Shown one piece after another: positions 14,101-32,427 of a stretch of DNA of 64,000 bases. The first letter of the stretch is position 1. The number at the start of each line of letters is the position of its first letter. A model generated the notes under the pieces. It was given only the letters and a program-made list of their open reading frames with translations, did no database searches and was not told the origin of the DNA. The position numbers were made by a program, and so were the translations under genes. The DNA is from Pectobacterium brasiliense. GTDB taxonomy: Bacteria; Pseudomonadota; Gammaproteobacteria; Enterobacterales; Enterobacteriaceae. The stretch is from positions 3,162,001 to 3,226,000 of the forward strand of contig NZ_JACGFN010000001.1 in the NCBI RefSeq assembly GCF_016950255.1, in the 5' to 3' direction.

Positions 14101-14122
14101 TGATTTTTATATTATTATCATG

Positions 14123-14611
14123 CTATCTCAGCCAAAATGGCAGATCATCAGGCCCCAGCGCATCATACTGTTCGAGGGGGCGATTTTTATCTTCGATAAA
14201 CCAAGGTAAGTCAGAAATAACGGTTTTTACAGGGACGTAAGTGCCAAAGTCATGATAAAAAGATTCGGAAGATTTTACGGCATTATAAAAATTTTTAAAA
14301 TGCTCTGAAAAAATGGTAGCCAAGTTACCTTTATCAAGGCATAAAGTTGATAAACTAATATTCCCACCAATATCATCCCAATTTATTTCTGTGGGTAAAG
14401 TACGGCTAAATAGCGCCTCTACCTGAAGTGCTTGCTCGGAAGCTAGATGAAGATCATTTTTTTCCAAGTAGCGACGATAAAGTCCATCAGTCAACAAACT
14501 GGTACTCATCCCTGAAGTGATCTGCGCTATGCATTGGAAAAAAATATACATATCAAGAGATGTACCGCAATTGTAGACGGTATGCCCACCATGGAATCCT
14601 ACGTTTTTCAT
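14123..14611 (-). CDS. cdiI: CdiI-type immunity protein
   Basis: A 162-residue cytosolic protein (begins MKNVGFHGGHTVYNCG, ends LGPDDLPFWLR) whose ATG overlaps the cdiA stop by four bases, so the two are translationally coupled. That position, directly after the toxin-encoding end of cdiA, is where the cognate immunity gene always lies in cdiBAI loci. The protein is expected to bind and neutralise the adjacent CdiA C-terminal nuclease in the cytosol and so protect siblings. The sequence gives no catalytic motif. The assignment rests on position and size; specific pairing is inferred. Confidence 0.75.
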   Translation of the reverse strand: MKNVGFHGGHTVYNCGTSLDMYIFFQCIAQITSGMSTSLLTDGLYRRYLEKNDLHLASEQALQVEALFSRTLPTEINWDDIGGNISLSTLCLDKGNLATIFSEHFKNFYNAVKSSESFYHDFGTYVPVKTVISDLPWFIEDKNRPLEQYDALGPDDLPFWLR

Positions 14612-17600
14612 TTCGTCATGAATCCTATATCTGTCGCACTAAGTATGTTATTTGATTTGGTTACAATTTCTTTGATGATCGCACTCTTTTGAGCATCAGT
14701 CACAGTCTGCCCGCGTATATCAATAATAACTTCCTGCTTCATTCCTGCAGGTAAATTCATCTGACGTTCAATGGCTTGCTTTGATACATTGTTAATTAAC
14801 CCGCTTTGGTTAGTCGTAAGGTTATAATTTTTTACCTCTATACTGCAAATTGTACCTAAACACCAGTCTGGGCGTACGCTGCCTGCTGTGCCGTGCGGGA
14901 CCTCTTTACCGCCTTTAAAGCTGACCTGTTCACGCCAACCTTCTCCTAGATTTTTACCTACGTCAGTCTCCGACTTTCTCCAGGAAGGACGTTCTATCAG
15001 TGCAATTTCACTTTTAACCGTTTCAAACGCCGCTTCGGCCTCTTTAACTTTCCCTGAGTCTAGATATTTTCTAGCCTGCTTTATTGCCGCCTTACCCGCT
15101 ACTCCGAGGCCTGGGACAATCGCCGCTGCGGTTAAAAGATAATCAAGAGAGGTTTGCGCTTCTAATGCACTTTTGATCCCCCCTGCGACAGGTGTAAAGT
15201 CCATGATCATCATGACCGCAGCCATGCGGGCGTCAACACGTTCCTGTGCCGCTTTATCTCCTCCCTTCGCCGCTTCTATGTCGTTGGCATTTTCCTGAAA
15301 CATTTGGTCAATCTCATGTTCCAGAAAATTGTATCGGTAGGTTATTTCAGCAGCATTGGCTGCACTATTCACTCCTCCGGGCGAATTGGTGGCAATTGCG
15401 CCAGCCAGAGAACCGATAACTCGGGATATTAACGCACTGGTTTCGTCCTGCTGGGTGATTTTGAGAAGCGTAACGACTTGTTTATCAAGCTCGCTTTTGT
15501 ATTTTGGTTCAAACAAACTACTTCCCATTACTGCGCCAGCTAGCTCTGCCGCCAGCGCACCAGCCGCAGCGCCTTTAACGTCACCACCACTGATTTCAGC
15601 AGCGATACCTGCGACAACAGCATGGCTGAGGGCTTTGCCCGGTACGTCAAGGACTGTACCGTTATCCCCAATAAATTTTGCCCCTTCAGCATTAATCTGG
15701 CTGCCGACGTTACTCAAGAGTGCCGTGGTGAAATTATCTTTGAAGCTACCGCCGTTAATCGCGGTACCGATGCTGGAGCTGATCACTGACTGTCCGGCGA
15801 CGCGTTGCGCCACCTTACTCCAGTCACCGTTGCTGAGCATAGGTAGTCTGGTTTGGGTTGGACTTGCGCCTGTGTTGCTGATTTTTAATACGCTGTCGAA
15901 ACCAGCCAGCGCACCACCCACAGCCATTGAAGTCACCAGTGACTTAACGGAAGCACTGTTACCCAGTGTTTGCATGGTTTTGGTAAGGTTACCTTTGTTG
16001 TCGACTAGTGCGACTGCTGCTTGTGAGGTCAGAGCTGTCATACCTGAGTAAACTGCACCGGACATCACAGTGGCTGTCATTCCGGTCGCACCAGCGGCAT
16101 TGACCGTCGCTGTTGCTGCCATTCCTGCCAGACCAGCACCTGCGGTTACTGCTGCAACGGCAATGGCAATTACGGCACCCACCACTGGATTCAAACTTTG
16201 GGTGGTATGGTTCCAATTGGTGTAGGCATCTTGCACCGCGTTCCATTGCACATCTTTACGGGTATTCAACCCTTTTAGCCACGTCGCCCCTGGAGTATTG
16301 CTGAGAGTCAGTAACGCATTTTGCAGTGATTGAGCATTGCGTGTTTTTACGTCAGCAGAAATCCCTGTTGCGGCATCAACGGTAAACTGTCCGCCAGCAT
16401 GGATTGAGGGTAATAGCCAGGTGTCTTTGGTGTATCCCCTGTCGGAGTTTTTAATGAAAAAACCTTTCGATGTGGTGATGGTTTGCTCGAACGTGGTATT
16501 TTTTACCGCCTTAAAGATAACTTTACCTTGAGTACTGGTGAGTTTAGCGTTCTTACCTGCCTCTATTTTGCTCGCTTCATAGATGCTGTCATCACGGCTA
16601 AGCAGATTGATGTCGCTTCCGGCAGTAAACTCGGTCACCTTATTGCTGACATTATGGTATGTCCGTTTGCCCTTTTTCTTTTTGCCATACCAAGTGCGGC
16701 TGCTGGATTCTTGTTCATAATGGTTGGTTTCTTCCATGGCTTGCGCATACAGAAACCCTCCTTTAGCAGCCACGTCCATTGCGCCTTTTGCAACTAAACT
16801 TGTGGCCTGAAATAAGATGCTGCTGCTAGATAAAAGCGTCAGCACACCACCACTATTTAACACGACATTTTGTTGTGTCGTTGATTCATTAAATTCGTTA
16901 TTTCCTTCGCGCATCGCGTAATTTTTCAGTGCGTTAAATTCCATCTTCCCACGGGAACTTAACGTCATATCCCCTATTGAGGATAATGAGCTTCCGGATG
17001 CAATGAGAGCGCCATTTGTCGCAAGAGTAAGATTTCTCCTCGCATTAATCTGAGTGATAACATGGCGATCGTCTCTATTTTCTTCGTCGGGGGTGGCGAT
17101 GGCAGAATACGCGGTAGAGAGTAATGAAAGAGTGCTGCCAGCCAAGAGCGTAATATTACTGGCGGATAGATTTGCTGATTTAATATTAATTTCACCTCCC
17201 GAGTTTATCAGTAAATCCCCGGTGCTAAGCCGGCTTGATAATGAAGGTGTACGTGTTGATGGCAAAAACTCATTGTAGATATTACCTACGGTTTTAACAT
17301 CAATGGTTACCATGCCGTTGGCAATTAAATCAATACCTTTCCCGGCAGTAAGGGATACACCTGATAAGGTAATATTACCTTTTGCTTTGGCAAGAATGTT
17401 ATAGTCTGTAAATAAATAATTTAGCTTAAAAAATGCATCGTCAAATATTTTTTTATTATTCTCTTGAGTTGTTTCTATTCCTCGTTGATGAGTAATTAGA
17501 TCATGAATTGAATTGCTTATAGTAAGGTCTTTTCCTGCAACAAATACTGTATTTTGGTTATTTCTAAAGCTAACCCCAGATAGTTTTATATTTCCTCCTG

Positions 17601-19671
17601 CGTTTAGAGAGAGGGTGTCTTCAGCATGGAGTGAAGCATATAGGCGATTCCCGGAATTGTTAAATATTGGCAATGACGTTGTTGCATAAGTAATGTCACC
17701 TTCACGGCTGTTAAGGTTAATATTCCTTGCTCTAAAAATTGAGGTTGTTGAACCAATAGTAGATGTGGCATTGATATTTATATCATTTCTGCTTGATGAG
17801 AGATTTGATTGATCAATAATGACTGAGCTTTTAGATATCAAATTTGTATTTTTTGATGAATCAATTACACCATTTATTCTTATATCACCTGCGCTCAGCA
17901 ATACGTCATTCCCTTTAATATTTGTTGTATCAAGTGACATGACTGTTGGTGATTGCGGTTGTAGAGTGTTCTCTATTTTTATTAGCCTTTCAAAATCGGC
18001 AACGACATTCCCAGTGGCATGTACTTTTGCCGATAGCAACTGCTCGCCTTTAAAAACGCTCTCTTTGTCTTTGACCCTATAGTAAGCAAGGATAAGTGGC
18101 GTGCCATCATCCAGAATAGTTGTGCTGGTCGATTGTGGCGTATTAGAACGTCTAACAGCCTGTTCTTGTGCCGTTTCCGAACGGAAATTTGTTGTATGTT
18201 CAGTTTGTTTTAACAACGGAGAAATATTTAAAAAATCCTGTCCTGCCAGAAAGATATTTCCATAGGATTTCAAATTGCTGGCGTTATTCTCCAACCGTGT
18301 GGCATTAATATAGAGGTTTTTTGCTCCGTGAATTTCGGATTCAGATGTAGCAACTTCCCCTTCAAGCTCTTTTTTAACAATTAAAGGGATATACGTTTTT
18401 GCATCGGAAAGCGATCGTATTGGCAATTCATTACCAACATTAAGGTTGGCGTAAGTTAAATCCTTCTTCTCTTTGACAGCGATCTTATCTCTGACGTTTT
18501 GAAGCGAGTTCGTCCGAATCACCAAATCCCCGGTATTGGTTTTAATCGTCCCCGAGCGGTTTTCTACCTTAACGCCTTTGTTCCCTGCCGCGTCTTTTTG
18601 AATCCACAGGTTGTTGTTGGCCTCAATGGTGGCCTGCGTGTTGGTCAGGTTGTCGTTGAACAGGCGCATATCTTCGCCCGCGATGATATTGCCTCGGTTA
18701 TTCAATACGGTACTGGCAAGCGTGATATCTCGGTCGCTTTTCACCGTATTGCCTGCGGCAATATCGACCTGCTGTGCATTCAGATTAAGGTCGGTTTTCG
18801 CGTTTACATTACCGAGCTGGATTTTACCTTTGCTGTCCAGCGTAATGCCTTGCTGAGAGCTGGTCAGGTTAGCGACGTTAGCGCCGACTCCGTCCTCGGT
18901 TGCCACGAGTCGGATGCGTTCTGCATACATGCCGCCGAGCGCTTTGGTGTCGACTGCCAGCAGTGGTTTGGCACCTTCTCCGGCGATGGGGGCGATCGTG
19001 CCGGTTTTGAAATCGACCCGATTGCTGCCTTGAGTCAGTGTCAGGTTTTTCGCGTTGATTTTGCCGTTCAGTTCGGTTGCCCGGCTGAGGATATCGACAT
19101 AATCCGTTGCTGAACCGTCCAGGCCTTTGCCACCAATGGTGATGCTGCCTTTTTTCACTTCCAACGCTTCAAGTGCGCCTTGCTGATCCAACACCGGTTT
19201 ACCGGTTGTCAGCGTGGCTGAAGGCGTATTGATGAACCCACATCCGTCACAGGTGATGCCGTTCGGGTTGGCAATCAATACGTTGGCTTTATTCCCGAAG
19301 ACTTCGATCTTCCCTTGCAGGTCTGAGCGGGTGGAGCCCGTTACCTCGTTGATAATCAAATCGGCCGCTTTGCCATTGAGGTTGGCGTTAGCGTTTAACT
19401 GCCCAGCCAACTGCGATTGCCCCGCGGCAATGCTGTTGTTTAGCACAGCACCGGGTGTCCCGACGCTGAAATCTTTATAGGTATTGTGAGAAACACCCGC
19501 TGCGTTTGGCGTCGCGATATTGATGACCGGGACGGCACCCGCGTTGTTGACTTGCGTGCGTGGGCCGTCTGGCGTGAGTGCAGCGAACGCGGGGTGTAAC
19601 GGTTGAATTGCGGTCAGGTAGATCAGCAGATAGCTAAGTCCACGAGTGGTACGGTTATTGAATTTTTCCAT
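14608..19671 (-). CDS. cdiA: CdiA/HecA-type two-partner-secreted toxin with C-terminal nuclease
   Basis: A 1687-residue exoprotein. The N-terminus has an extended signal region and a TPS/hemagglutination domain with the NPNGI motif and the GLSYLLIYLTAIQPLHPAFA start. A long beta-helix region follows (many GNI and LNAG type repeats), then a DUF637-like Ala/Gly segment (about 1185-1285) and a pretoxin-like stretch (DFTPVAGGIKSALEAQTSLD, from about 1491). The last roughly 125 residues look like a PD-(D/E)XK nuclease: Asp1602 in SVRPDW and Glu1612/Lys1614 in IEVKNY, followed by an RQMNLPAGMKQ segment. No VENN motif was found. It is short for CdiA (usually over 3000 residues). In this family the tail is delivered into neighbours after contact. 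It lies between cdiB (38 bases upstream) and cdiI. Confidence 0.85.
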   Translation of the reverse strand: MEKFNNRTTRGLSYLLIYLTAIQPLHPAFAALTPDGPRTQVNNAGAVPVINIATPNAAGVSHNTYKDFSVGTPGAVLNNSIAAGQSQLAGQLNANANLNGKAADLIINEVTGSTRSDLQGKIEVFGNKANVLIANPNGITCDGCGFINTPSATLTTGKPVLDQQGALEALEVKKGSITIGGKGLDGSATDYVDILSRATELNGKINAKNLTLTQGSNRVDFKTGTIAPIAGEGAKPLLAVDTKALGGMYAERIRLVATEDGVGANVANLTSSQQGITLDSKGKIQLGNVNAKTDLNLNAQQVDIAAGNTVKSDRDITLASTVLNNRGNIIAGEDMRLFNDNLTNTQATIEANNNLWIQKDAAGNKGVKVENRSGTIKTNTGDLVIRTNSLQNVRDKIAVKEKKDLTYANLNVGNELPIRSLSDAKTYIPLIVKKELEGEVATSESEIHGAKNLYINATRLENNASNLKSYGNIFLAGQDFLNISPLLKQTEHTTNFRSETAQEQAVRRSNTPQSTSTTILDDGTPLILAYYRVKDKESVFKGEQLLSAKVHATGNVVADFERLIKIENTLQPQSPTVMSLDTTNIKGNDVLLSAGDIRINGVIDSSKNTNLISKSSVIIDQSNLSSSRNDININATSTIGSTTSIFRARNINLNSREGDITYATTSLPIFNNSGNRLYASLHAEDTLSLNAGGNIKLSGVSFRNNQNTVFVAGKDLTISNSIHDLITHQRGIETTQENNKKIFDDAFFKLNYLFTDYNILAKAKGNITLSGVSLTAGKGIDLIANGMVTIDVKTVGNIYNEFLPSTRTPSLSSRLSTGDLLINSGGEINIKSANLSASNITLLAGSTLSLLSTAYSAIATPDEENRDDRHVITQINARRNLTLATNGALIASGSSLSSIGDMTLSSRGKMEFNALKNYAMREGNNEFNESTTQQNVVLNSGGVLTLLSSSSILFQATSLVAKGAMDVAAKGGFLYAQAMEETNHYEQESSSRTWYGKKKKGKRTYHNVSNKVTEFTAGSDINLLSRDDSIYEASKIEAGKNAKLTSTQGKVIFKAVKNTTFEQTITTSKGFFIKNSDRGYTKDTWLLPSIHAGGQFTVDAATGISADVKTRNAQSLQNALLTLSNTPGATWLKGLNTRKDVQWNAVQDAYTNWNHTTQSLNPVVGAVIAIAVAAVTAGAGLAGMAATATVNAAGATGMTATVMSGAVYSGMTALTSQAAVALVDNKGNLTKTMQTLGNSASVKSLVTSMAVGGALAGFDSVLKISNTGASPTQTRLPMLSNGDWSKVAQRVAGQSVISSSIGTAINGGSFKDNFTTALLSNVGSQINAEGAKFIGDNGTVLDVPGKALSHAVVAGIAAEISGGDVKGAAAGALAAELAGAVMGSSLFEPKYKSELDKQVVTLLKITQQDETSALISRVIGSLAGAIATNSPGGVNSAANAAEITYRYNFLEHEIDQMFQENANDIEAAKGGDKAAQERVDARMAAVMMIMDFTPVAGGIKSALEAQTSLDYLLTAAAIVPGLGVAGKAAIKQARKYLDSGKVKEAEAAFETVKSEIALIERPSWRKSETDVGKNLGEGWREQVSFKGGKEVPHGTAGSVRPDWCLGTICSIEVKNYNLTTNQSGLINNVSKQAIERQMNLPAGMKQEVIIDIRGQTVTDAQKSAIIKEIVTKSNNILSATDIGFMTK

Positions 19672-19709
19672 GTGACTTTCCTTGTTTTCCTTTTGCTTGA
19701 ATAAAACGC

Positions 19710-21392
19710 TTAATTAAAAAACGCTGTAACAGGGAGGGAGACTTGCCAGTAAACGACGGCGTTGTCGGGATGGAGATCGTTCGGGAAGTGCAGCGGCACG
19801 CCGAGCGACACTGACTGGCTGACCCAACGTGAAGATGCAGACAGGCCGACGGAAGCACCGGTCATATTGCCACCATCGACTTTGCCGGCTTTCCCCGCAA
19901 TCCACCCGCTATCCAGCGCGGTGGTTAAGGCGATATCACCCAGAAACGGTAGGGTAGTGAATTGCCAATTCAGTTCATTACGCCAGTAGAAACCCCGATT
20001 GCCAGTTAGTGTCTGTTCCTTAAATCCCCGGACGGAATACTCGCCGCCGAGCGAGACGCGTTCGCTGGTATACAGGTTGTCCGGCGTGGTTTGGCCGTAA
20101 AGGGAAGTCAGAAAGTACAGCGATGGCGCAAGTGGGTAGAAATAGCTGCTGCTGACGCTAAATTTGCGGAACTCGCTGCGTGGCAGGCCACTATTTTCTT
20201 TTGTGTCATCTGTCGCGCCCCAACTCCTTACGCCATGGCTTAACATCGGGTTGAGCGTAAAATATCCCCCGACCAGCGTGGTGCTATAGCTGAGCCCAAG
20301 GCTAGCGCTACTGACCGTAGGGCTGCTGACCTCAAGGCGCTCGCCCGCCATGCGGTTCTCGGTGCGTCGGCGGGAGAGCGCGCCATCCAGCGCCAGCTTC
20401 TGCTTCCCATCCCGATAGAGCGTTCTGTTGAGGCTGAGCCGATGGGTATTACTTTGCCCTTCATAGCGATACGCGCTGCTGCCGATCGGGATCGGTTGGA
20501 AAAAGTCATTCCAGGCGTATTGGTAGCCGAGCGTCCAGTAGCCATAAGGCAAAGACATCCCGCCCGATAAGGCTTTGCTGCCGTAGCTATGGCTGAACGC
20601 GCTATCACGGCTGGCGGTGAGCCACCAGCGGTCGGCGAGTCGCAGTGGGTTATCAAACGTGAGGTGGGTGGAAAGCTGTTCGCGGCCCGTGCTTTTTTGT
20701 CCGCTGTTGTCTGTGCTGAGAGACAGGGTGACAGGGCGGGAGTGCGTGGTGCGTTTGAGATAAACAATCGAACTTCCGGCTTGTTTTCCCGGCTGAATAT
20801 CAATCGTCACCTGCTGCGAAGGCAGGCGATTAAGTTGTTCCATCCCTTGTTCGATATCGCGCAGATTAAGAATGCGTCCTTCCAGACCGGGGAAGGCCAT
20901 CTTGATTGCGAGTGGCGTTTCCCCTTCCATACGAATGGCTTCTATTTTTCCCTCGCTGACGCTGATGATGAGCGTGCCGTTGGAGAGGTCTTGTTCCTGC
21001 AAATAGGCTTGGCTGGTGACAAAGCCTCGATTGAGGTAGGTGTTGGTGGTTTCCCTCACGACGTTATGGATTGTGGCTAAATCAAGGCAGCGATTTTGGT
21101 AGCGCCGCTGAACAGCGGCCCGATCTTTCGTTGAAAGGGACTCTGCATCGTGAAAGACAATGTTTTGGATGGGGAAGCAGACGGCATCTTTTACTGTTGG
21201 TGCAGTGACCGTGGGTATCGTTAAGGTGGTGCTGTTTTCCAGCGATAAACGCTGCTGTTTGGCCTGCTCCAGTAATGACTTTTGCTGGAGCTCCAGCGCA
21301 TCGCGATCTGTTGGGCTGATGGCGGTGGCGGCAAAGGTTGAGCTGCTGAGACTCAAAAAAATAAGGCTTATAAAAGAAAGGGTTTTACACAA
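19710..21392 (-). CDS. cdiB: CdiB/HecB-type outer-membrane TPS transporter
   Basis: A 560-residue Omp85-family two-partner-secretion transporter (ShlB/FhaC type) that exports CdiA across the outer membrane. Seen: a signal peptide (FISLIFLSLSSSTFAA), an N-terminal plug-helix region, a POTRA segment (CFPIQNIVFHDAE; RGFVTSQAYLQEQDLSNGTL; LNRLPSQQVTIDI) and a 16-strand barrel with a VRGF signature (SVRGFKEQTLTG) and a C-terminal aromatic, PVTAFFN. The frame begins with TTG at 21392, preceded by AAGGAA; no in-frame ATG is available at this position, so TTG is the likely start. It heads the operon cdiB-cdiA-cdiI and lies downstream of a Fur-like operator. Confidence 0.9.
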   Translation of the reverse strand: MCKTLSFISLIFLSLSSSTFAATAISPTDRDALELQQKSLLEQAKQQRLSLENSTTLTIPTVTAPTVKDAVCFPIQNIVFHDAESLSTKDRAAVQRRYQNRCLDLATIHNVVRETTNTYLNRGFVTSQAYLQEQDLSNGTLIISVSEGKIEAIRMEGETPLAIKMAFPGLEGRILNLRDIEQGMEQLNRLPSQQVTIDIQPGKQAGSSIVYLKRTTHSRPVTLSLSTDNSGQKSTGREQLSTHLTFDNPLRLADRWWLTASRDSAFSHSYGSKALSGGMSLPYGYWTLGYQYAWNDFFQPIPIGSSAYRYEGQSNTHRLSLNRTLYRDGKQKLALDGALSRRRTENRMAGERLEVSSPTVSSASLGLSYSTTLVGGYFTLNPMLSHGVRSWGATDDTKENSGLPRSEFRKFSVSSSYFYPLAPSLYFLTSLYGQTTPDNLYTSERVSLGGEYSVRGFKEQTLTGNRGFYWRNELNWQFTTLPFLGDIALTTALDSGWIAGKAGKVDGGNMTGASVGLSASSRWVSQSVSLGVPLHFPNDLHPDNAVVYWQVSLPVTAFFN

Positions 21393-21650: not shown

Positions 21651-24600
21651 TTACTTAAAGTCCGCGTACGGCGTAAGCGGCTGCGGTGGGCTGTCGAGAT
21701 CGCCCTGCCAGCCGGAGGCGGAGTAGCGCAGGTAGATGAGGCCGTGGCTTGGGGTGTAGTCCTTCGCTTGCTGAATGTCGATACCGACGCCCAGCGTCCA
21801 GTGTGAGCTGAGGCGGCGTTCGACGATGGCGCGTGCCGTATAGCCGAAGCCGGAACTGCTGCTGCCTTGTTCGATGGTGTCTCGGTCGGTGATCGCAGCG
21901 TTGCCCAGCAGGCCGGTCAACGGATAGCGACGCTGATCTTTGGTAGAAGAACGTGACCACGAGAGCGATCCACCGAGTTCCCACGACCAGTTTTCCGTCC
22001 GCTGCCGGTAGTTCACCGGTACGCCCAGAGAAAAGTATTGCTGTGGGCTGTAGTAGCCGCCCTGGCCAAGCGAATAACCGCTTAAGTCTTTCTGGTGTCG
22101 CCACCACATGCTGTTCAGACCGACCGTGACGCGTTGGTTATCCTCGTTAATCAGCTTGTAGTAATAACCTGCCATAGCGCGAGCGCGGTCATTATCGGCC
22201 ACGTTTTTACCCGTAATTTGGTGGACGCTGAAATCACTCCAGACGCCGTGCGCTTCGCCCCGATCGTAGCTCAGCCCGAGACTGATGCCCGTGGCACGCA
22301 CGCCGCCCCAGGTAATGCCGGTGCCAGGGTCTTTGGTGCCGCCGAAGGCGAGTAATGAGCTGGAGATTGGGCGGCGTGATGCTGTCGCGGTCCAGCCGAT
22401 TTGCCGCCAGTCGCCGCTGTAGCTTGCGCCACCGACGATATCGACCACGTCGAAGCCGAGCGGCGTGGTGCCGATATCTGCCGACCAGCGATCGTTCTTC
22501 CAGCCTGCGGCGACGCTGGTGCCGGTGGCTTTCTGTGATTTACCGTCGAAACAGTCCCGCGTGGCGCAGGTGCCGAAAGTTTCCCGGTAGGCACCGTTGC
22601 TGTCCGTTGAGAAGGAGCCAGCGTCCATCTGTACGGTATCGGTGCGGAAGAAGGCGCGACCATCGTACAACGGCATATCCACTTGCAGCATGGTGTTGTG
22701 AGCGCTCAGATCGGAAATCCCACCTGTTCCGCTTGAACTCCCGTAATCGTGATCCAGAGTGACGGTCACATCCTGCTTACGATACAGATCCGCCGCATCG
22801 GCGCGGATGCTGCGTTGCAGCCAGTCGTCTCCTGCCTGATTGCGCGTCAGTCGGGTATAGTCATCGTCGCTTTGCGGCAGAGCGGGCGTGATGCCGCTAG
22901 CAACCATCGACTGTTTATAGTCCTGCTGCGCCTGTTCAGGTTGAGACTGCTGTTGTTCAACGCGTGCCGCATCGCGGTAGACCAATGCTTTGCCCTGACC
23001 GACCGGTTCTTTCTGCGCGTCGATTTTTAGCTGACGGAAAAGCGCCGTCGACTTTTGCGGATTTCCGACCGCTTGCCAAGCGTTGGCGACGTGCCGCTGT
23101 GCGTTGAGGGTATCAGCCGCCTGCGCCGGGAGCTGGTTCAGACGCTGGCGTGCGTCATCTTGCCGACCCTGCGCGATAAATGCGTCGATCTCACCCAATT
23201 GTGCATCGGGGTTCTGCGGTTCTCGTGTGCGAATGCGTTGATAATCCGCCAGCGCCGTCGCGTATTCGCCCCGTGCCAGTGCCCAGTCTGCCAGCAGCAG
23301 ATCGATACGGGTGTTCGCCGGTTGCTGACGCAGAAAAGCGATAGCGGCGGATTCGTCCCCTGCATCGCGCATGGCTTCCGCTTTCGCCAGCGTGGTCTGT
23401 ATCGTCAGGCGCTGAGATAAATCGCGCATGTCGTCGCTCCACTGCGCTGCGGAAAGCGTGTTCAGGTGAGCGAGTGCTTGCTCATCACGATTGGTGGATG
23501 ACAGGTAAAGTGAGTAAACGTAGTTCTTCTGTGCGTCGGCCGGTGGCACGGCAGTCGCGCGTTGTACCACGCTGTCGGCCTGCTGCATTTGCCCCAGCTG
23601 GCGCAGCGTCTGGGCATAGCGATAGGCAAACCAGATATCGTTCGGATCCTGCTGGTTCGCCTGACGATACTTCTCTTCCGCCTGCGTCCACTGCTGCTGT
23701 TCCGCAAGTTGGTCTGCCTGTTGTTTTAGGATATTGAGTTGTAGCGCAGTAAGCGTATCCCGCATCGTGTTCTGCTGGCTGCGCGACAGGCTGTTGAGGT
23801 AAGTGAGTGCTTTCTCCGGCGACTGCCGCTGATAAATCCCGACCAGACCGCGCAGGGCGTTATCGTTGCCGGGTTCAAGGTGTAAAGCCTGCTGATAGAG
23901 CGGCTGGGCGGCGGTATCGTTTTGGCTGGCAACGGCGACATCACCCAGACCAATCAGCGCATAGGGATTGGTGTTATCCATCTGGCGTGCCTGCTGATAC
24001 TTCTGGCGTGCCAGCGGGAGGTTATTGGCTTTCAGCGCGTTGTCGCCTTCCGCAATGGTGGTCCAATATTGCGTACTTTTGATAAGCCCTTCCCATTTGC
24101 CGCTGTTCAGGCGATTCACATCCGCCTGTAGTGCCTTCTGGAACTGTGCCAGCGCTTTTACCCGATCGCCCGCGCGCAGATAAACCAGACCAATAGCGCC
24201 GATCAGTTCGGGGTCGTTGGGTGTGGTGGCCAGCGCCTTATTCAATTCGTCAAGCGTGGCACTATTGCCGCCACCATCTTCAATCTGTGCCAGTGCGCGC
24301 AGCCGGCCCTGATAAACGGGATCGGCTAATATTCCCTGCTGACGGCTGAGTTCTTTACGTGCCGTATCCGCCTGTTCACCTTCATCAAACACGGTCAGAA
24401 AGCGGTTGAGTTCCGCCACACTTTGTGGCGTGACCAGCATCCGACCAATAATTTCCAGCCACAGCGAAGCTGCCTGACTGCGTCCGACGGGATCGTTAGA
24501 AAGCTGTTTGAGGAGGGGATAGGCTTGTTCGTTACGATTCTGACTAAACAACAGCCGCGCCAGCACCATACGCAGCGGTACATTATTCGGATAGGCCTGA

Positions 24601-26231
24601 TCTAACGTCTCCAGTTGTTTAATCGCCAGAGGTTGTTGGTTGGGTAAGCGTGAGACCAGCCGCCAATACTCTACGGCAAGATCGAGCGTTGGGGGCTCGC
24701 CGTGAAAGAGCGAGTCGTACTGTGCTTTGGCTTCCGCATAGCGCCCGGCGGTAGACAGCAAACGCGCCTGCTGTAATTGCTGACGCGCGGTTTCCTGCGT
24801 CAGCGCCAGCGTGATTTCTGCCTGCCGGTAGAGGGCAGAATCGGGCGCTACTGCCTTTAGCTTGTCCAACTGCTGGCGCGCCTGCGCCTGATCGCCCTGA
24901 CGCAGCGCCAGCCGCAATCTGGCGGCGATAACCTCTGGGTTATCCGGGTTAATCAGCTCCAGTCGATGGAGCGACTGACGCACAATATCGTCTTTGTTGC
25001 TGGCTTCTCCCAAACGCACCTGCTCCATCAGGAACTGCTCTGGCGACGTAGTTTCTGCGCTGTATGCCTGCGGCGCAGTAACCAGCAATAACGGGAGCAG
25101 GCGCAGCCAGTTCAGCGCCAGATTGTTGGCTTTCAATGCGTTGTCACCTTTCGCGATCGTGGTCCAATCTTGCGTATTTTGGATGAGCCCTTCCCATCTA
25201 CCGCTGTGAAGACGGCTCATATCCACCTGTAATGCCTTCTGGAACTGTTCCAGTGCTTTTTTCCGATCGCCTTCGCGCAGGTAAACCAGAGCGACCGCGC
25301 CGATCAGTTCGGGGGTATTTGGCGTGGCAGCCAGCGCGTTATTCAGTTCATTGAGCATGGCGCTATTGCCACCGCGGCTTTCACCCTGTGCCAGGCTACG
25401 GAGACGTGTCTGATAGGTGGGATCGGCTAACATTTTCTGCTGGCGGTTAAGCTCTTTGCGGACGGTTTCTGCCCGTTTGCCTTCGTTAAATAGGGTCAGA
25501 AAGCGATTTAACTCTGCTACGCTCTGCGGCGTGACGGGCATCCGCCGAATGATCGCTAGCCATAGCGATGCCGCCTGACTGCGTCCGACGGGGGCGTTAG
25601 CCAACTGTTTCAGCAAAGGAGCGGTCTGCTCGTTACTACCCTGACGGAAGAGCAAGTATGACAGCGCAAGGCGCAGAGGAACGTTGTCAGGGTATACCTG
25701 ATCCAGCTCTGCCAGTTGCTTAAGCGCGACCAGCTCCTGATCCGGTAAGTAGGAAACCATACGCCAGTATTCAACGGCCAGATCGAGCGTTGGGGGTTCG
25801 CCGTGAAAGAGCGCGTCATACTGCGCTTTGGCTTCCGCATATTGCCCGGCGGTAGATAGCGAGCGAGCCTTCTGTAATTGTTGGCGCGTCTCTTCCTGCG
25901 TCAGTGCCAGTATCATGCTTGCATGACGATAGGCAGCGGAATCGGGTGCCAGCGTTTTCAGTTTTTCCAACAGCTGACGCGCCTGCGTTTGATCGCCCTG
26001 ACGCATCGCCAGCCGCAATTTGGCGGCAATTGCTTCGGGGTTATTTGGCGCGATAAGCTCCAGCCGATAGAGAGACTGACGCACGAGATCGTCTTTGTTG
26101 CTGGCTTCTCCCAGGCGCACCTGTTCCATCAGGAATTGCTCTGGCGACGCGGTTTCCGCGCTGTATGCCTGCGGTGCAGCAACCAGCAATAACGGGAGGA
26201 CGCGCAGCCAATTTAAGGTGTCGTTGCGCAT
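21651..26231 (-). CDS. bcsC: Cellulose synthase outer-membrane subunit BcsC with duplicated N-terminal TPR region
   Basis: A 1526-residue BcsC, about 370 residues longer than the E. coli protein (1157). BcsC exports cellulose: a periplasmic TPR solenoid leads to a C-terminal 16-strand beta-barrel (about the last 340 residues, beginning near VTLDHDYGSSSGTGG and ending LTPYADFK). The extra length is an internal tandem duplication: residues 7-373 and 374-740 align end to end without gaps, both starting NWLR(V/L)LPLLLV and both ending GDNALKANN. The second copy therefore carries an internal signal-peptide-like hydrophobic stretch. The normal TPR array resumes after copy 2 (LARQKYQQARQMDNTNPYAL). 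The start overlaps bcsZ by 19 bases. It is last in bcsRQABZC and a terminator follows. Confidence 0.93.
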   Translation of the reverse strand: MRNDTLNWLRVLPLLLVAAPQAYSAETASPEQFLMEQVRLGEASNKDDLVRQSLYRLELIAPNNPEAIAAKLRLAMRQGDQTQARQLLEKLKTLAPDSAAYRHASMILALTQEETRQQLQKARSLSTAGQYAEAKAQYDALFHGEPPTLDLAVEYWRMVSYLPDQELVALKQLAELDQVYPDNVPLRLALSYLLFRQGSNEQTAPLLKQLANAPVGRSQAASLWLAIIRRMPVTPQSVAELNRFLTLFNEGKRAETVRKELNRQQKMLADPTYQTRLRSLAQGESRGGNSAMLNELNNALAATPNTPELIGAVALVYLREGDRKKALEQFQKALQVDMSRLHSGRWEGLIQNTQDWTTIAKGDNALKANNLALNWLRLLPLLLVTAPQAYSAETTSPEQFLMEQVRLGEASNKDDIVRQSLHRLELINPDNPEVIAARLRLALRQGDQAQARQQLDKLKAVAPDSALYRQAEITLALTQETARQQLQQARLLSTAGRYAEAKAQYDSLFHGEPPTLDLAVEYWRLVSRLPNQQPLAIKQLETLDQAYPNNVPLRMVLARLLFSQNRNEQAYPLLKQLSNDPVGRSQAASLWLEIIGRMLVTPQSVAELNRFLTVFDEGEQADTARKELSRQQGILADPVYQGRLRALAQIEDGGGNSATLDELNKALATTPNDPELIGAIGLVYLRAGDRVKALAQFQKALQADVNRLNSGKWEGLIKSTQYWTTIAEGDNALKANNLPLARQKYQQARQMDNTNPYALIGLGDVAVASQNDTAAQPLYQQALHLEPGNDNALRGLVGIYQRQSPEKALTYLNSLSRSQQNTMRDTLTALQLNILKQQADQLAEQQQWTQAEEKYRQANQQDPNDIWFAYRYAQTLRQLGQMQQADSVVQRATAVPPADAQKNYVYSLYLSSTNRDEQALAHLNTLSAAQWSDDMRDLSQRLTIQTTLAKAEAMRDAGDESAAIAFLRQQPANTRIDLLLADWALARGEYATALADYQRIRTREPQNPDAQLGEIDAFIAQGRQDDARQRLNQLPAQAADTLNAQRHVANAWQAVGNPQKSTALFRQLKIDAQKEPVGQGKALVYRDAARVEQQQSQPEQAQQDYKQSMVASGITPALPQSDDDYTRLTRNQAGDDWLQRSIRADAADLYRKQDVTVTLDHDYGSSSGTGGISDLSAHNTMLQVDMPLYDGRAFFRTDTVQMDAGSFSTDSNGAYRETFGTCATRDCFDGKSQKATGTSVAAGWKNDRWSADIGTTPLGFDVVDIVGGASYSGDWRQIGWTATASRRPISSSLLAFGGTKDPGTGITWGGVRATGISLGLSYDRGEAHGVWSDFSVHQITGKNVADNDRARAMAGYYYKLINEDNQRVTVGLNSMWWRHQKDLSGYSLGQGGYYSPQQYFSLGVPVNYRQRTENWSWELGGSLSWSRSSTKDQRRYPLTGLLGNAAITDRDTIEQGSSSSGFGYTARAIVERRLSSHWTLGVGIDIQQAKDYTPSHGLIYLRYSASGWQGDLDSPPQPLTPYADFK
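24021..25121 (-). repeat. Copy 2 of the 1101-base bcsC tandem duplication
   Basis: This is in frame and contiguous with copy 1 and encodes residues about 371-737 of BcsC. Copy 2 differs from copy 1 at many positions (roughly three quarters of residues identical by eye), so the duplication is old enough to have diverged and is not an assembly duplicate. Its left end abuts the unduplicated TPR region. Confidence 0.88.
25122..26222 (-). repeat. Copy 1 of the 1101-base bcsC tandem duplication
   Basis: This encodes the true signal peptide and the first TPR block of BcsC (residues about 4-370). The offset to copy 2 is exactly 1101 bases (367 codons), measured at both ends: at the signal-peptide segment (26182 versus 25081) and at the junction (25124 versus 24023). 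Confidence 0.88.
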
Positions 26232-27328
26232 TGGCTACCCCGATACGGTAAAAGTTGGCCTTGTGAAGTGAAGCGATAGCGCTTCTGATCCCATCCCTGA
26301 CCAAAAAGCGTCAGCGAGGCAGAGAAATAAGCATCGTCACCCGGTGGATTGGCAGCGAGCCGCTGTCGCTGGGTGCCCAGTGCGTCCGGCTGACGAGAGA
26401 GCATCGGAAGCAGCGAGGCGGAAAAGCCTACCGATCCTTGTCCGGTGACGGTGCCTGTCGCGGTGTCCGCTTTTTCGGGCGGTAGCCCTTGCTGGATCGT
26501 CTGCTGAACCATCGGCTGAAACTGTTTGAGTAAATCGGTTTTCCCTCTACTGCTGTCGGCCATCATCCCCGCCCACAGATAGACGCGGATGGCGTCATAG
26601 CTGCCGACATTAGGTTTGGTGGTATCGGACTGCCAGCCTTTGCCTTTTTGCCAGATGACCCAATCAGGCGAAAACCCTTTCGGTGCGGTTTCCAACAGCA
26701 GGCGCTGCGTGGTGCGCTGCATGGCTTTCCACTTCTCGTCCAGCGGCGCAAATCGTGCCAGCAGTTGCGGCGGCAGGTAGCTGGGGTTCAAGCGCCAGCT
26801 CTCTTTCTCTACGAAGCCCACTTTGCCGGGCAGTAACATCACGCCCAGCCCCGGAATCGTCACCACCTCTTCTTTGGCGATACGCGCAAGCAGCGCGGTG
26901 CCTAGCGTCTGATAGCTTGCCTCTTTCCACAGCCGGCCAGCTTCAAGCAGGCTATAGGCAATCCACAGATCGGCATCGGAAGCGGAGTTCGGATCCAGCA
27001 CCGTCCACTGTTTATCCGTGTTCTCTCCCCACAGCCAGGCGGGCAGATTCGCGCGTAAATCGCCTGCGGACAGGTTGTCCTCTGTCCATTTCAGCAGCCG
27101 ATCAAACATCACACGATCGTTGGCGACCAGCGCAAAGAACAGGGCGTAGCTTTGCCCTTCGGACGTGGTGATTTTATTGGGCGTTGAGGTATCAATCACT
27201 CTTCCTTCTTCGCTGATGTAATACTGCTTGTACTGCTCCCAGGCTGGCCAGTCGCAGACGGCGGCGGTGGCCAGGGAAGCCCATAGCCACAGCAGCGTGG
27301 GAGTCAGGTAGCGCAGCACGCGTGGCAT
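26213..27328 (-). CDS. bcsZ: Periplasmic endo-1,4-beta-glucanase BcsZ (GH8)
   Basis: A 371-residue GH8 cellulase with a signal peptide (LRYLTPTLLWLWASLATAA). It trims nascent cellulose in the periplasm and is needed for normal cellulose export. Seen: the general-acid Glu in ITTSEGQSYALFFAL, and WTVLDPNSASDADLWIAYSL, which contains the GH8 signature with conserved Asp residues and continues to LLEAGRLW. Its length matches E. coli BcsZ (368). It starts six bases after bcsB and overlaps bcsC by 19 bases, so translation is probably coupled. No missing motifs were seen. Confidence 0.95.
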   Translation of the reverse strand: MPRVLRYLTPTLLWLWASLATAAVCDWPAWEQYKQYYISEEGRVIDTSTPNKITTSEGQSYALFFALVANDRVMFDRLLKWTEDNLSAGDLRANLPAWLWGENTDKQWTVLDPNSASDADLWIAYSLLEAGRLWKEASYQTLGTALLARIAKEEVVTIPGLGVMLLPGKVGFVEKESWRLNPSYLPPQLLARFAPLDEKWKAMQRTTQRLLLETAPKGFSPDWVIWQKGKGWQSDTTKPNVGSYDAIRVYLWAGMMADSSRGKTDLLKQFQPMVQQTIQQGLPPEKADTATGTVTGQGSVGFSASLLPMLSRQPDALGTQRQRLAANPPGDDAYFSASLTLFGQGWDQKRYRFTSQGQLLPYRGSQCATTP

Positions 27329-27334
27329 GGTGCG

Positions 27335-29653
27335 TTAATCCCTTTCATCCGGCGACAGGCGACGGCGGCTGAAGAGTCTCAGACCTCGCCACAGCAGCCA
27401 GGCAATAATAATGACGCTGACGGTGGACATGATCGCCAGCCAGACGGGATGTTGCGCCAGTACGTGCCAGATACGTTCCCACCACGGCAGGTGGCCGACG
27501 TAATAAACATCGCCGACGCGCAGATTATTGATGCCCGATTCGCGGATGACGGAAACGGAACCGAACAGCGAGGCTCTTTTTTCACTGTCGATCAGCGCGT
27601 TGTTGAGTAGTGTATAACCCTGCGGACTATCGGCTAGCAGCGCGACAACGCTGCGCTGGTCGTGATACGGGGACTGGAAGCCGATAATCGCCGACATCGC
27701 TCCGTCACTGCTGACGGTGGTTTTACTGTCTGGCTTCGCGTCAGACTCGGGGGAGCCCATGTCCGGCATTGCGGTCTGGCGTAGCGGCTGTTTGATCCAG
27801 CTTTTTGTTTGTTCGACCAGTAGGTTAATTTTACTACTGTCGTGCAGTTCAGGCGGGATAGCGCCGATCATCAAAATATCGCGGTCCTGCTTGTCTACCT
27901 GCGTCCAGTCATCGCTGAGCTGCATCGCTAACGCCGGATAGCCGGTTTGCGCCCCAATGTTGCCGATTGCGTTCAGCATGGCGCTGAGCTGAGCCGGTTG
28001 TGGCTGTTTGTTCACCAGCACCAAGGTTTGTGACAGGTCAGCCAGTCGGCTGAACGGATAGCCGGCATTGGCAAAAGCACGTAGATCCGGCATTGCCATA
28101 AAGTGTCGGTAACCAGAGAAGTTAACGGTCGAGCTGCCGTCGATGACGGCGTGATTCACGACTGGCGTATAAGTTTCGCAGCGGTCGGCGGTGCCGCTGG
28201 AGAGCAACGTAGTGTAGTTGAAATCAAAGCGCAGCTCGTTGGTCGTGCCCAGTTTCAGCGCCGGAATAGACAGGGTCTTGTCGGAATCCCGTAGCCCTTG
28301 TGTGAGCGGCAGACGCATCAACAGGGAATTCTGGTCCTGCTCCGGCGCCAGCGAGAACGCCTGTACGAACTGGTTGTTCAGGTTAATACTCAGGCGCGAG
28401 CCATCCATAATCTGCGGTGCGGTGTAGCGATATTTCAGACGCATATCGATGCCCTGGCTGCGGATCAGGAACAGGTCGGGCGGCAGGTTCATGGTCAGCG
28501 AAATCGGCCGGGGCACGATACCGTCGGTTTGCAGCTGTTCGTTATATTGCTGCAGTTCGGCGAAGGTCATCGGGCGGTCGGTGCGAACCCAGTTTGGCGC
28601 ATCATACGGCTGGCGTGGGGCAAGCTGCTCCACCTTATCGATGGTGACGCTTTGCCCACGGAACAGCGCGTTCCCCTGTGCGATGCCCTGCACGGCGGTG
28701 AACAGTTCATTGTCATCACGTCCCTGAACCAGCAGTAGTTTCACATGAGGATCGTTAGGGTGGCTGATGATCGATACCGTTGGCCCGTTCACGGCGGGAG
28801 TATCGCGCAGGAAATCCGGCCGCTTATCGTTGGTAGCGAACACAATACCGTGGCTATTCGGCAGTTGGTTGAAGAGGGCTGGGAAAGACTGCCCGCGCCA
28901 TTGTGCTTTGCTGCCAAACCACGAGGCGAGTACCGCGGCGGCATGCTGTTGCACCAGATCCGGCTGGCCGGCAAAGACGATGGGCAGCGTCAGTGGGCGG
29001 GTATCGCGGCTGTCAAAAAACGGTGCTGGGAACGGCGACAGATCGTCTTTCAGCGTCAATTTCTGGAATTGTAGATTGAGCGCACTGGCTTTGCTGATAT
29101 CCAGCCACAGGCTGGTGCTGGCTGGGTTTTCGCAGATGTTCTGATAATGGCCGACGAACACCAACTGCATACGGTTAAAGTCCGTGATGTAGCGCGGATC
29201 GATAGGAATGCGAACGCGGTTGGATTTCCCCATCTGCTCTTTGCTAATCGTGGTGACGCCCATGAGCTCATTGTTCAGGTAAACCTTGATATGCGACTCG
29301 GTGGGGATCAGCGCCGGTGACGGGGTAAACTCGAGATCGAGGGAAGCCTGTGTGACCACTTCATCGCTGCGAACGCCAAACTCAATCTGTCCGTCGGGAT
29401 TGATACCGCGTAGCGCAAAGGCGCCCGGCGCAGGCGCGATTTGCGCAAAGGGCATCACCACGTTGCGCACGGCGGTGTTGGTTGCCGGTTGCGCCAGAGG
29501 AATCGCTGGCATCGTCATCGCTGGCGTTGCGGTGGCAGGCGGCTGAGTTGCGCCCCCTTCTGCCAGTGTTTGTGCGTACGGCGCGGTGACAGCCTGAGAT
29601 AATGAGCTGACGCCTAAAGCCAATGCGGTGAACCAGATTATTTTTTTCGTCAT
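27335..29653 (-). CDS. bcsB: Cellulose synthase periplasmic regulatory subunit BcsB
   Basis: A 772-residue BcsB with a signal peptide (KIIWFTALALGVSSLSQAV), a Pro/Ala-rich linker, alternating carbohydrate-binding and flavodoxin-like domains (RGINPDGQIEFGVRSDEVVT; RIPIDPRYITDFNRMQLVF; VWLDISK-like TSLWLDISKAS; DRCETYTPVVNHAVIDGSST) and a single C-terminal membrane helix (VWLAIMSTVSVIIIAWLLW) followed by a basic tail. It anchors to BcsA and guides the glucan across the periplasm. The length is close to E. coli BcsB (779). The gap of 74 bases to bcsA is the largest inside the operon. Confidence 0.95.
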   Translation of the reverse strand: MTKKIIWFTALALGVSSLSQAVTAPYAQTLAEGGATQPPATATPAMTMPAIPLAQPATNTAVRNVVMPFAQIAPAPGAFALRGINPDGQIEFGVRSDEVVTQASLDLEFTPSPALIPTESHIKVYLNNELMGVTTISKEQMGKSNRVRIPIDPRYITDFNRMQLVFVGHYQNICENPASTSLWLDISKASALNLQFQKLTLKDDLSPFPAPFFDSRDTRPLTLPIVFAGQPDLVQQHAAAVLASWFGSKAQWRGQSFPALFNQLPNSHGIVFATNDKRPDFLRDTPAVNGPTVSIISHPNDPHVKLLLVQGRDDNELFTAVQGIAQGNALFRGQSVTIDKVEQLAPRQPYDAPNWVRTDRPMTFAELQQYNEQLQTDGIVPRPISLTMNLPPDLFLIRSQGIDMRLKYRYTAPQIMDGSRLSINLNNQFVQAFSLAPEQDQNSLLMRLPLTQGLRDSDKTLSIPALKLGTTNELRFDFNYTTLLSSGTADRCETYTPVVNHAVIDGSSTVNFSGYRHFMAMPDLRAFANAGYPFSRLADLSQTLVLVNKQPQPAQLSAMLNAIGNIGAQTGYPALAMQLSDDWTQVDKQDRDILMIGAIPPELHDSSKINLLVEQTKSWIKQPLRQTAMPDMGSPESDAKPDSKTTVSSDGAMSAIIGFQSPYHDQRSVVALLADSPQGYTLLNNALIDSEKRASLFGSVSVIRESGINNLRVGDVYYVGHLPWWERIWHVLAQHPVWLAIMSTVSVIIIAWLLWRGLRLFSRRRLSPDERD

Positions 29654-29727: not shown

Positions 29728-32427
29728 TCAAGCCACTGTCTTTTCTGTAAACAGGTTCTCTTGTGCAAATCGCGTTTCATGGGCAGACGGCGTTTTGCCC
29801 TGATGTCCGGCTTTTTCCGGCAGCGCAGCACCCGACGGGGTTGTGACGGTGCGTTTCCCTACATAGCGTGGGATGAATGACACCACCCACACCACGATGT
29901 TGAGGAAGGCCAGGATAATGTTGCGTATGACAGGCGGCGCGTAATCGGCCAGACGCAGGTAGCCGCGAAAGCCGAGTGCCAGCACATCAACCAGACTTTC
30001 GACCGGTTTATCCTGCGGGAAGCTGTCTTGCCAGAGCGCCCAGGTGTCGGCGCGGGCAAACGTACACTGAATGAAATCAATATGCTGGCGGATGGTCAGG
30101 TTGGTCATACGCAGGCCAATCTTGTTGTCGAACGCGCGGGTAACGCTGAACGGGAAGGCGTATTCCTGCTGACCGCGTTTTAGCAACAGTGAGACGCTGT
30201 CCCCGACCTGAAGAATACCCGACTCGCGGGCTTCAACGCCGACGCCGCCATCGGAATAGTCGCGCAGGACACAGGGGAAAAGATGACCATCGGCACGGAG
30301 GATGGCGGCGGACATCGACATTTCCACCCGGTGGGCCTGACGTACCTGCTTGGCTTCTACGGCAACCGCGACGGCTCCGCCTAAAATGGTCATGTTGTAC
30401 ACGACCCACAGCAGGCTGATGAGCACCGTCATGATCTCTTCCGGCGGCCCGTAAATCAGACGCCAGAGGCCATACACGATCCCTGCGATATTCAGCAGCA
30501 CCAGCACCAGATAAGGTCGCGTAATCACCCAATCGACATGCTGTTCTTCCACCAGTCCGCCTTTGGCCGTCACGTTGAATTTCCCTTTGTGTGGGTTAAA
30601 CAGCGCGACGGTCGTCGGGCGGGCGATGTACCACGCCAGCACGGTTTCATAGATCTCACTCCAGAACGAGTGACGGTAGCGCCCCTGAATACGCGAGTTG
30701 GTCAGGCTGGCGTGTACCATGTGCGGCAGCACGTAGAGTGCGATGGCCAGCGCCGGGGCGAAGATGATGTAGGCATGCAGCAGGAGGAACGCCAGCGGCG
30801 CAGTCAGGAAGATCAGCCGCGGAATACCGGACAGAAAGTGCATCATGGCGTTGGCATAACACAGCCGCTGCCCCAGTTTCAGCCCCTTGCCGAACAGCGG
30901 GTTATCCAGCCGGAAGATTTGCACCATGCCACGCGCCCAGCGAATACGTTGCCCGATGTGCGCCGAGAGGCTCTCGGTCGCCAGTCCGGCGGCCTGTGGA
31001 ATGCGGATATACGCCGAGCTGTAGCCAAGGCGATGCAGGCGCAGTGAGGTGTGGGCATCTTCCGTCACCGTTTCGACCGCAATCCCGCCAATCTCATCCA
31101 GCGGTTTACGCCGCAGGATGGCGCAGGATCCGCAGAAGAACGTGGCGTCCCACATGTCGTTACCGTCCTGAACCAGACCGTAGAACAGCGTGCCTTCATT
31201 GGGCGTACGGCGGAAGCGTCCCAGATTGCGTTCGAATGGATCGGGCGAGAAGAAATGGTGCGGCGTTTGCAGCATCGCCAGCTTTTTGTCTTTGAAGAAC
31301 CAGCCCATGGTTAATTGCAGGAAAGAGCGGGTAGGGACGTGGTCGCAGTCGAAAATGGCGACGAACTCGCCTTTCGCCTGTTTCAGGGCGTTGTTGATGT
31401 TCCCGGCTTTGGCATGTTCGTGCGTGACGCGGGCGATGTAATGGACGCCGACGTCTTCTGCGAAGGCCTTAAATTCGGCGCGGCCGCCGTCATCCAGAAT
31501 ATAGATGTTGAGCTTATCTTTAGGCCAGTCGATACCTAACGCGGCATACACCGTTGGTTTCACGACGCTCAAGGGTTCATTGTAGGTCGGGATCATCAGA
31601 TCGACGGTTGGCCACGTTTTGCTGTCTTCCGGCAGTGAAACCGGGTGGCGGTTCAGCGGCCAGATCGTCTGGAAATAGCCCAGAACCAACACGACCCAGG
31701 CATAGGTTTCCGCTGCCAGCAGCAGCATGCCGCAGATCAGACTCAGCGGATCGTCCCAGTTCAGCGTTTCAGTGTAGCGCCACCACAGGTAACGGCAGGA
31801 AACCGTGAAAGAAAGGGCGATCATCATGAGCGTCGGCATGCGTCCCGGCATGTTGCGAACGAGCATGGCGATGCACCACAGCAGCGTCATGAAAATAAAC
31901 TGCGACAGTAAATCAAACGGTTGCGTGATACATAGCAGCGCCAGCGCCGCACACAGCAGGCTCAGCGCGACCGTCACTAGCCTCTGAAGGCGGCTCGTCT
32001 TGGTGGAGCCTGATTCATGGTCTTCGCGATCGTCAGTATTCGTGTGGCTAAAGCGGGTAAACAGCGCTTGCTGCGCGTTCATGTAGCGTTGCCGCCAGCG
32101 CGGCAGCGCGGAGAAGTAATTGCGGCGCGATGTCGGCAACTGGCCGTTTTTGATGGTCAGCAGCCAAATACCCTGCGTTAGATAGCGAAGAATATCGGCC
32201 GGACGCGGGCGTTGAGGCGAAATGTGTGGGAACCAGTAGGTTCGCTGCGCGCGAATCTGTTGCCAGCCCTCAGACTCCAGCCGCAGGAAGATCCAGCCGA
32301 GTATCGCAAACAGCGTGGCGAAAAAGGCGGCAAAGGCGGAGGCACCCTGCTGACGATAGCCGCGGTAGCGCTGCTGTATCGCCTGTCTGGCGGGCGGAAC
32401 GAGGAACAAGCGCAGGATTCCACTCAT
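29728..32427 (-). CDS. bcsA: Cellulose synthase catalytic subunit BcsA
   Basis: An 899-residue inner-membrane GT2 synthase that polymerises UDP-glucose into beta-1,4-glucan and threads it through its own channel. Seen: N-terminal membrane helices, the glycosyltransferase core with DDGG, DCDH, TVTEDAH and the Q-x-x-R-W signature (QRIRW), further helices, then a PilZ domain with RxxxR (RQAHR) and D-x-S-x-x-G (DYSDGG), which binds c-di-GMP and releases the gating loop. All catalytic and regulatory residues looked for are present, so the enzyme should be c-di-GMP-activated. It overlaps bcsQ by four bases. The length is close to E. coli BcsA (872). Confidence 0.96.
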   Translation of the reverse strand: MSGILRLFLVPPARQAIQQRYRGYRQQGASAFAAFFATLFAILGWIFLRLESEGWQQIRAQRTYWFPHISPQRPRPADILRYLTQGIWLLTIKNGQLPTSRRNYFSALPRWRQRYMNAQQALFTRFSHTNTDDREDHESGSTKTSRLQRLVTVALSLLCAALALLCITQPFDLLSQFIFMTLLWCIAMLVRNMPGRMPTLMMIALSFTVSCRYLWWRYTETLNWDDPLSLICGMLLLAAETYAWVVLVLGYFQTIWPLNRHPVSLPEDSKTWPTVDLMIPTYNEPLSVVKPTVYAALGIDWPKDKLNIYILDDGGRAEFKAFAEDVGVHYIARVTHEHAKAGNINNALKQAKGEFVAIFDCDHVPTRSFLQLTMGWFFKDKKLAMLQTPHHFFSPDPFERNLGRFRRTPNEGTLFYGLVQDGNDMWDATFFCGSCAILRRKPLDEIGGIAVETVTEDAHTSLRLHRLGYSSAYIRIPQAAGLATESLSAHIGQRIRWARGMVQIFRLDNPLFGKGLKLGQRLCYANAMMHFLSGIPRLIFLTAPLAFLLLHAYIIFAPALAIALYVLPHMVHASLTNSRIQGRYRHSFWSEIYETVLAWYIARPTTVALFNPHKGKFNVTAKGGLVEEQHVDWVITRPYLVLVLLNIAGIVYGLWRLIYGPPEEIMTVLISLLWVVYNMTILGGAVAVAVEAKQVRQAHRVEMSMSAAILRADGHLFPCVLRDYSDGGVGVEARESGILQVGDSVSLLLKRGQQEYAFPFSVTRAFDNKIGLRMTNLTIRQHIDFIQCTFARADTWALWQDSFPQDKPVESLVDVLALGFRGYLRLADYAPPVIRNIILAFLNIVVWVVSFIPRYVGKRTVTTPSGAALPEKAGHQGKTPSAHETRFAQENLFTEKTVA

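Follow-up and report, generated by a model that had tools for sequence, protein, structure and literature searches.

A doubled N-terminal TPR region in BcsC of Pectobacterium: an old, constrained and probably horizontally shared variant

The bridging of the inner-membrane synthase and the outer-membrane pore by BcsC in E. coli was described only in 2024 (PMC11379886). In the stretch of Pectobacterium brasiliense DNA analysed here (64,000 nucleotides, in the following called the window), bcsC encodes a protein with its N-terminal TPR region in two tandem copies, which raises the questions whether this duplication is real, how old it is and what the doubled gene makes. We find a real, old and constrained BcsC variant that has probably been shared horizontally and that is hidden in representative protein records by the annotation of start sites.

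The doubled gene and its locus

The doubled bcsC was called as an open reading frame of 1526 codons on the minus strand (21651–26231), beside bcsA, bcsB and bcsZ. The 3' end of bcsZ, coding for a GH8 cellulase (26213–27328), overlaps the bcsC start by 19 bases; bcsB (27335–29653), bcsA (29728–32427) and bcsQ (32424–33161), all recognized by profile matches, are likewise found on the minus strand, and bcsE and bcsG on the plus strand. The barrel domain BCSC_C is present in the product (PF05420 positions 1–334 of 336, residues 1173–1504, 405.2 bits), and the full-length equivalog model NF008520 is matched in two stretches with 2244.8 bits at a cut-off of 858, the best stretch pairing residues 377–1525 with model positions 9–1157. 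By both profiles the doubled protein stays a BcsC. It departs from the canonical layout of one signal peptide and one array of about 19 TPRs in that the signal peptide (by inspection) and the N-terminal TPR block both occur twice. With BcsC of E. coli and Enterobacter CJF-002, which have 19 TPRs and a 16-stranded barrel (PMC11379886), it shares the barrel, the TPRs after the duplication, the docking residues of TPR#1 and the operon context, whereas the second signal peptide and TPR block, and with them an internal signal sequence, set it apart; its 1526 residues compare with the 1157 positions of NF008520. The TPR proteins PgaA and AlgK, from other systems of polysaccharide export, resemble it in using a TPR domain for this task (PMC5638805), and the PgaA match of the window protein is weak (TIGR03939, 29.3 bits, cut-off 366.65).

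Residues 7–373 and 374–740 align without gaps and are identical at 281 of 367 positions (76.6%). An in-frame tandem duplication of the N-terminal TPR region with about three quarters identity, an offset of 1101 bases and a total of 1526 residues had been proposed in a previous sequence-only reading of this DNA, and all of these features were reproduced; the coordinates given there (24021–26222) mark the right region and lie about 9 bases off the exact blocks (24012–26213). By self-alignment, copy 1 (residues 7–373) occupies 25113–26213 and copy 2 (residues 374–740), which joins the rest of BcsC as single-copy genes do, 24012–25112, both on the minus strand. More than 60 identities were obtained at offset 367 alone in a scan from 300 to 439, and identity ends sharply at the far edge of the unit. 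Two unrelated TPR arrays, an outcome named in advance as fatal to the duplication, are ruled out by the gapless identity. On the DNA level the copies are 77.1% identical over 1101 bases, with 66, 41 and 145 differences at first, second and third codon positions and with 108 synonymous and 86 non-synonymous codon differences. A repeat search of the window returned one direct family (a 300-base stretch, 78%, spacing 1101); Tandem Repeats Finder, with periods up to 500, reported none.

Two points go beyond what had been noted before: the duplicated unit takes in the signal peptide, and other Pectobacterium have this junction too. Unit 1 starts in codon 7 of bcsC, at the base that also ends the stop codon of bcsZ. 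As the unit contains the signal peptide (residues 1–24, 26160–26231, minus strand), copy 2 opens with an internal signal-peptide-like segment, NWLRLLPLLLVTAPQAYSA (25056–25112, minus strand), and no other 15 consecutive residues of the protein are as hydrophobic as residues 371–385; signal peptides, like the Shine-Dalgarno likeness discussed below, were judged by eye and hydropathy. The junction reads ...ALKANNLAL-NWLRLLPLLLVTAPQAYSA... in the doubled protein, and the corresponding site reads ...ALKANNLPLARQKY... or near it in most single-copy proteins. Doubled proteins are longer than single-copy ones by 367 residues (1526, 1526 and 1531 against 1159 or 1164). In the doubled BcsC a segment resembling a signal peptide is retained in the interior of a secreted protein.

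Distribution in genomes and protein records

A bcsC match was found in 23 of 25 Pectobacterium genomes searched, the exceptions being G013 and G014, and was in one piece in 22 of the 23; in G021 it consists of four partly overlapping pieces, and the gene looks broken. Three of the 22 one-piece genes are doubled (the window genome, G002 and G023) and share the same junction. The other 19 are single-copy genes of 1159 or 1164 aa, which lack copy 1 and are 86–93% identical to the window protein over approximately residues 365–1526. A single copy in other strains had been put forward as a refuting result; it is the common state, and the doubled form nevertheless recurs. The BcsC of G002 is the same in protein sequence as P0001 from P. 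atrosepticum ICMP 1526, which is 92% identical to the window protein, also 1526 aa long, has the same doubled layout and junction and differs from it in sequence divergence only.

The representation in protein databases is less obvious. A search with the junction region against approximately 5.8 billion proteins gave 62 candidates and 8 hits, of which P0001, P0002 and P0003, all from Pectobacterium, span the junction, and the other five (P0004–P0008) have 64% coverage; this search admits proteins of approximately 840–2670 aa. Among the protein matches listed (120 of 1263 and 120 of 143), P0002 (P. brasiliense, a cluster of 284 members) and P0003 (P. versatile, 193 members) have 1189-aa representatives that begin at a Met matching residue 338, inside copy 1, and read across the junction. 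With P0002 the window protein matches at 1171 of 1189 residues. Due to the annotated start at this internal Met the duplication is hidden in the representatives of clusters with 477 members together, and the NF008520 best stretch at residues 377–1525 may lie behind this choice of start. This suggests that, in large clusters of proteins, a duplication on the scale of a domain can be masked by the annotation of start sites.

P. versatile KC01 (L037) has a single-copy bcsC and the P. versatile representative P0003 has the junction, so that the two forms exist under one species name. P0121, named as a partial P. versatile protein and as a fragment outside the size range of the junction search, has the normal start, runs through copy 1 and the junction and ends just beyond. 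Its residues 7–126 are of the copy-2 type of P0003 (120/120) and its residues 327–366 equal copy 1 of the window (40/40). Copy 1 of P0121 is therefore a mosaic, copy-2-type over approximately 7–246 and copy-1-type over approximately 247–373, and this chimera points to conversion between the copies.

At the level of the order, 75 of 394 genomes, a sample drawn evenly from a larger group with G023 left out, gave PF05420 matches at E values up to 1e-20. Judged by frame length alone, open frames above 1,457 aa among these 75 were found for the window gene and G002 and none outside Pectobacterium. In searches of an open-access library no title or opening abstract was found to describe a duplication inside BcsC, in agreement with the previous statement that no such form was known. 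One P. brasiliense genome paper has bcsC in its operon list (PMC6567464), and in passages of PMC7112194, which covers duplications of loci and operons, no BcsC-internal one was found.

History and constraint of the two copies

In a tree of 26 N-terminal blocks, whose bootstrap had not settled, the three copy-1 blocks form one clade (support 100/100, stem 0.16). The copy-2 blocks form no clade (3 changes) and are scattered among single-copy blocks. Copy 2 and the rest of the gene of G002 both pair with P. peruviense (copy-2 support 99/95); copy 2 of G023 falls near blocks of P. carotovorum and P. versatile, with P. carotovorum nearest by identity (90.5%). Copy 2 of the window is on the P. atrosepticum/peruviense side, and the rest of the window gene is sister to G020; by its position in the tree this block (24012–25112) looks to have recombined on its own. 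That copy-2 blocks simply track species is consequently only partly so: it applies to G002, G023 was not placed, and for the window copy it does not apply.

Within genomes, dS between copy 1 and copy 2 amounts to 0.72–0.88, as large as between species, which rules out a recent duplication within the window genome. Between species, copy 1 shows a dS of 0.37–0.41 compared to 0.55–0.70 for the rest of the gene, and the 95% codon-bootstrap intervals of this deficit exclude zero in all three pairs. Compared to copy 2, the dS of copy 1 is lower in two of three pairs, the interval for window and G002 including zero. Among 171 single-copy pairs, a block-to-rest dS ratio as low as that of copy 1 was met in only 1, 4 and 1 cases. 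The low synonymous divergence of copy 1 relative to the rest of the gene indicates that the doubled allele probably spread between lineages. Tree and distances place the separation of copy 1 from other bcsC early in Pectobacterium or close to its base; later the doubled allele probably moved between lineages, by recombination. Besides copying within one gene, arrival of the block from an unsampled relative is possible.

Selection on copy 1 was assessed from the same comparisons. Between species dN/dS is 0.13–0.15 for copy 1 and 0.09–0.12 for copy 2, with a mean of 0.106 for single-copy blocks and approximately 0.07 for the remainder of bcsC. The excess of copy 1 over this remainder has intervals that exclude zero in all three pairs, pointing towards weaker constraint on copy 1; for the difference from copy 2 they do so in none. 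All three copy-1 blocks have 1101 bases and are open, free of stops and of length changes, a state that is partly forced, since translation from the start codon has to pass through copy 1 to reach the remainder of bcsC. Judged by these codon comparisons, copy 1 is old and under coding constraint.

Docking heads, predicted structure and possible products

In E. coli, TPR#1 contacts the terminal BcsB via Q30, Q34, L37, Q49, R53, L56 and I57 (PMC11379886). Both copies in all three doubled proteins have FQLQRLI at these seven positions, six of them as in E. coli, and the same residues are found in the 19 single-copy Pectobacterium proteins and in Brenneria alni; F instead of Q at position 30 is common to all 22 Pectobacterium genes and Brenneria alni. 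TPR#1 of copy 1 (26052–26147, minus strand) and of copy 2 (24951–25046, minus strand) are accordingly two candidate BcsB-docking heads, with the bcsB of the locus as the expected partner. As copy 1 repeats the docking TPR#1, the number of docking heads changes besides the reach. In the E. coli geometry the sixth BcsB alone can bind BcsC (PMC11379886), so that it is not evident how one hexamer could take two heads, and the second head may lack a partner within one complex. Nine positions of the BcsB groove, taken from PMC11379886, were compared by eye between window and E. coli: six are identical, and L162, F163 and V209 differ. By eye, the window BcsB has R and Y at L162 and F163, which lie under helix 1 of BcsC. 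These two changes possibly co-vary with the change of Q30 to F in BcsC.

The earlier expectation of a solenoid about twice as long, with altered reach, is supported in part. AlphaFold2 was applied to residues 25–800 with 27 sequences and shallow coverage of copy 1, giving a mean pLDDT of 80.0 and a pTM of 0.41, at which the relative placement of the solenoids is not defined. The model has helical repeats for copy 1 and again for copy 2, predicting two solenoids instead of one longer one; the reach would change. Between them a linker of 38 residues (358–395; 25047–25160, minus strand; model residues 334–371) is predicted with pLDDT below 50, which contains the internal signal peptide. Its low confidence may stem from the signal-peptide columns of the alignment. 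Two shorter low-pLDDT stretches are located within copy 1. The five best Foldseek matches are the five chains of 5xw7, the crystal structure of BcsC TPRs (TM by target 0.58–0.72), and for the Enterobacter structure flexible hinges are reported in this region (PMC5638805).

Shortly before the junction lies a candidate internal start (25134–25151, minus strand) consisting of AAAGGTGA (25144–25151) and, seven bases further, the in-frame TTG codon 366 (25134–25136). Codon 366 is TTG in all three copy-1 blocks and CTG or CTA in all 22 copy-2 and single-copy Pectobacterium blocks; AAAGGTGA occurs in the former (3/3) and in none of the latter, and the shorter AAGGTGA is found by eye in nine of these 22 as well. 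A start at this TTG would yield MKANNLALNWLRLLPLLLVTAPQAYSA..., a protein of 1161 aa with a leading signal peptide. Synonymous differences among the three doubled genes dip at codons 365–392 (pS 0.16), a value reached or undercut in 4 of 713 windows including the dip itself, three of which begin at codons 360–365 and one at 69. At the protein level, the internal signal segment NWLRLLPLLLVTAPQAYSA does not vary among the three doubled genes. From these features internal initiation at codon 366 is possible.

Starting from what is observed directly, namely the duplication, the shared junction, the single copy-1 clade and the coding constraint, we prefer the explanation that the doubled gene makes a two-headed BcsC with a flexible joint, for which we see about even chances from sequence and model. 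In a single event at or near the base of Pectobacterium, a stretch of 1101 bases that starts at codon 7, spans 367 codons and ends midway through a TPR would have been placed in frame before a second copy, and the allele would have persisted and then probably passed between lineages by recombination. The first signal peptide would export the whole chain. Copy 1 would form one more TPR solenoid at the N-terminus, with a TPR#1 that could dock a terminal BcsB subunit, and a flexible linker with a relic internal signal peptide would connect it to a normal BcsC of copy 2, the remaining TPRs and the outer-membrane barrel, bringing a second TPR#1. The outcome would be a longer and looser tether between synthase and pore with two BcsB-docking sites per pore. 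The presence of bcsQ, A, B, Z, E and G counts for this explanation; the patchy occurrence of copy 1 (3/22) counts against it, since BcsC works without it in the genus.

The main rival, somewhat unlikely in our view, assumes two products, either by the internal TTG start giving a canonical 1161-aa pre-BcsC or by a signal peptidase cut at the internal AYS site, and copy 1 would then be a separate or released TPR part that binds BcsB and either competes with BcsC or regulates it. The restriction of TTG and AAAGGTGA to copy-1 blocks, the invariant signal segment and the synonymous dip all fit, as does the annotation of P0002 and P0003 from Met 338, although this reflects annotation and not expression. 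However, the copy-1 blocks share one ancestor, so that TTG and site may be a single event, and AAGGTGA in nine other blocks shows the site to be mostly plain coding sequence. The low synonymous window at codon 69 lies far from the junction, and the dip could reflect recent shared descent of the junction. Copy 1 would moreover be free to decay if the internal start sufficed, yet it is constrained, and access of signal peptidase to an internal, weakly hydrophobic segment is hard to explain. On sequence features we regard it as unlikely that the two-headed BcsC of 1526 aa comes from the same gene as a second product, either a normal BcsC of 1161 aa or a TPR head set free; if true, the cell could tune the coupling of synthase and pore or tie two synthase complexes to one pore.

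Slightly less probable still is a tolerated, nearly neutral duplication, in which the doubled protein acts as a normal BcsC does and the additional block persists, its loss requiring recombination between repeats of 77% identity. The small number of doubled species genes, the single-copy state of KC01 beside the junction in P0003, the conversion visible in P0121 and the higher dN/dS of copy 1 compared to the remainder of bcsC are in accordance with it; a dN/dS of 0.13–0.15 at a dS of about 0.4, unbroken copy-1 blocks (0/3 broken), intact docking residues and the probable spread of the allele between lineages speak against it. Tandem repeats are prone to misassembly and the partial P0121 ends just beyond the junction, yet an assembly or annotation artefact is extremely improbable and in effect refuted by separate genomes: the copies differ at 23% of bases, and the same junction is present in three genomes and three protein clusters, one of which has the same protein as G002. 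Pectobacterium offers a natural experiment, in which related strains differ by a whole extra candidate docking head and solenoid.

Downstream of bcsC the window contains a two-partner secretion pair (region 13680–21392) with a ShlB/FhaC-type transporter (19710–21392) and an exoprotein of 1687 aa (14608–19671) that carries DUF637 and a PT-VENN match just below its cut-off. The two small ORFs that follow (14123–14611 and 13680–14006), both free of Pfam matches, are possibly immunity genes.
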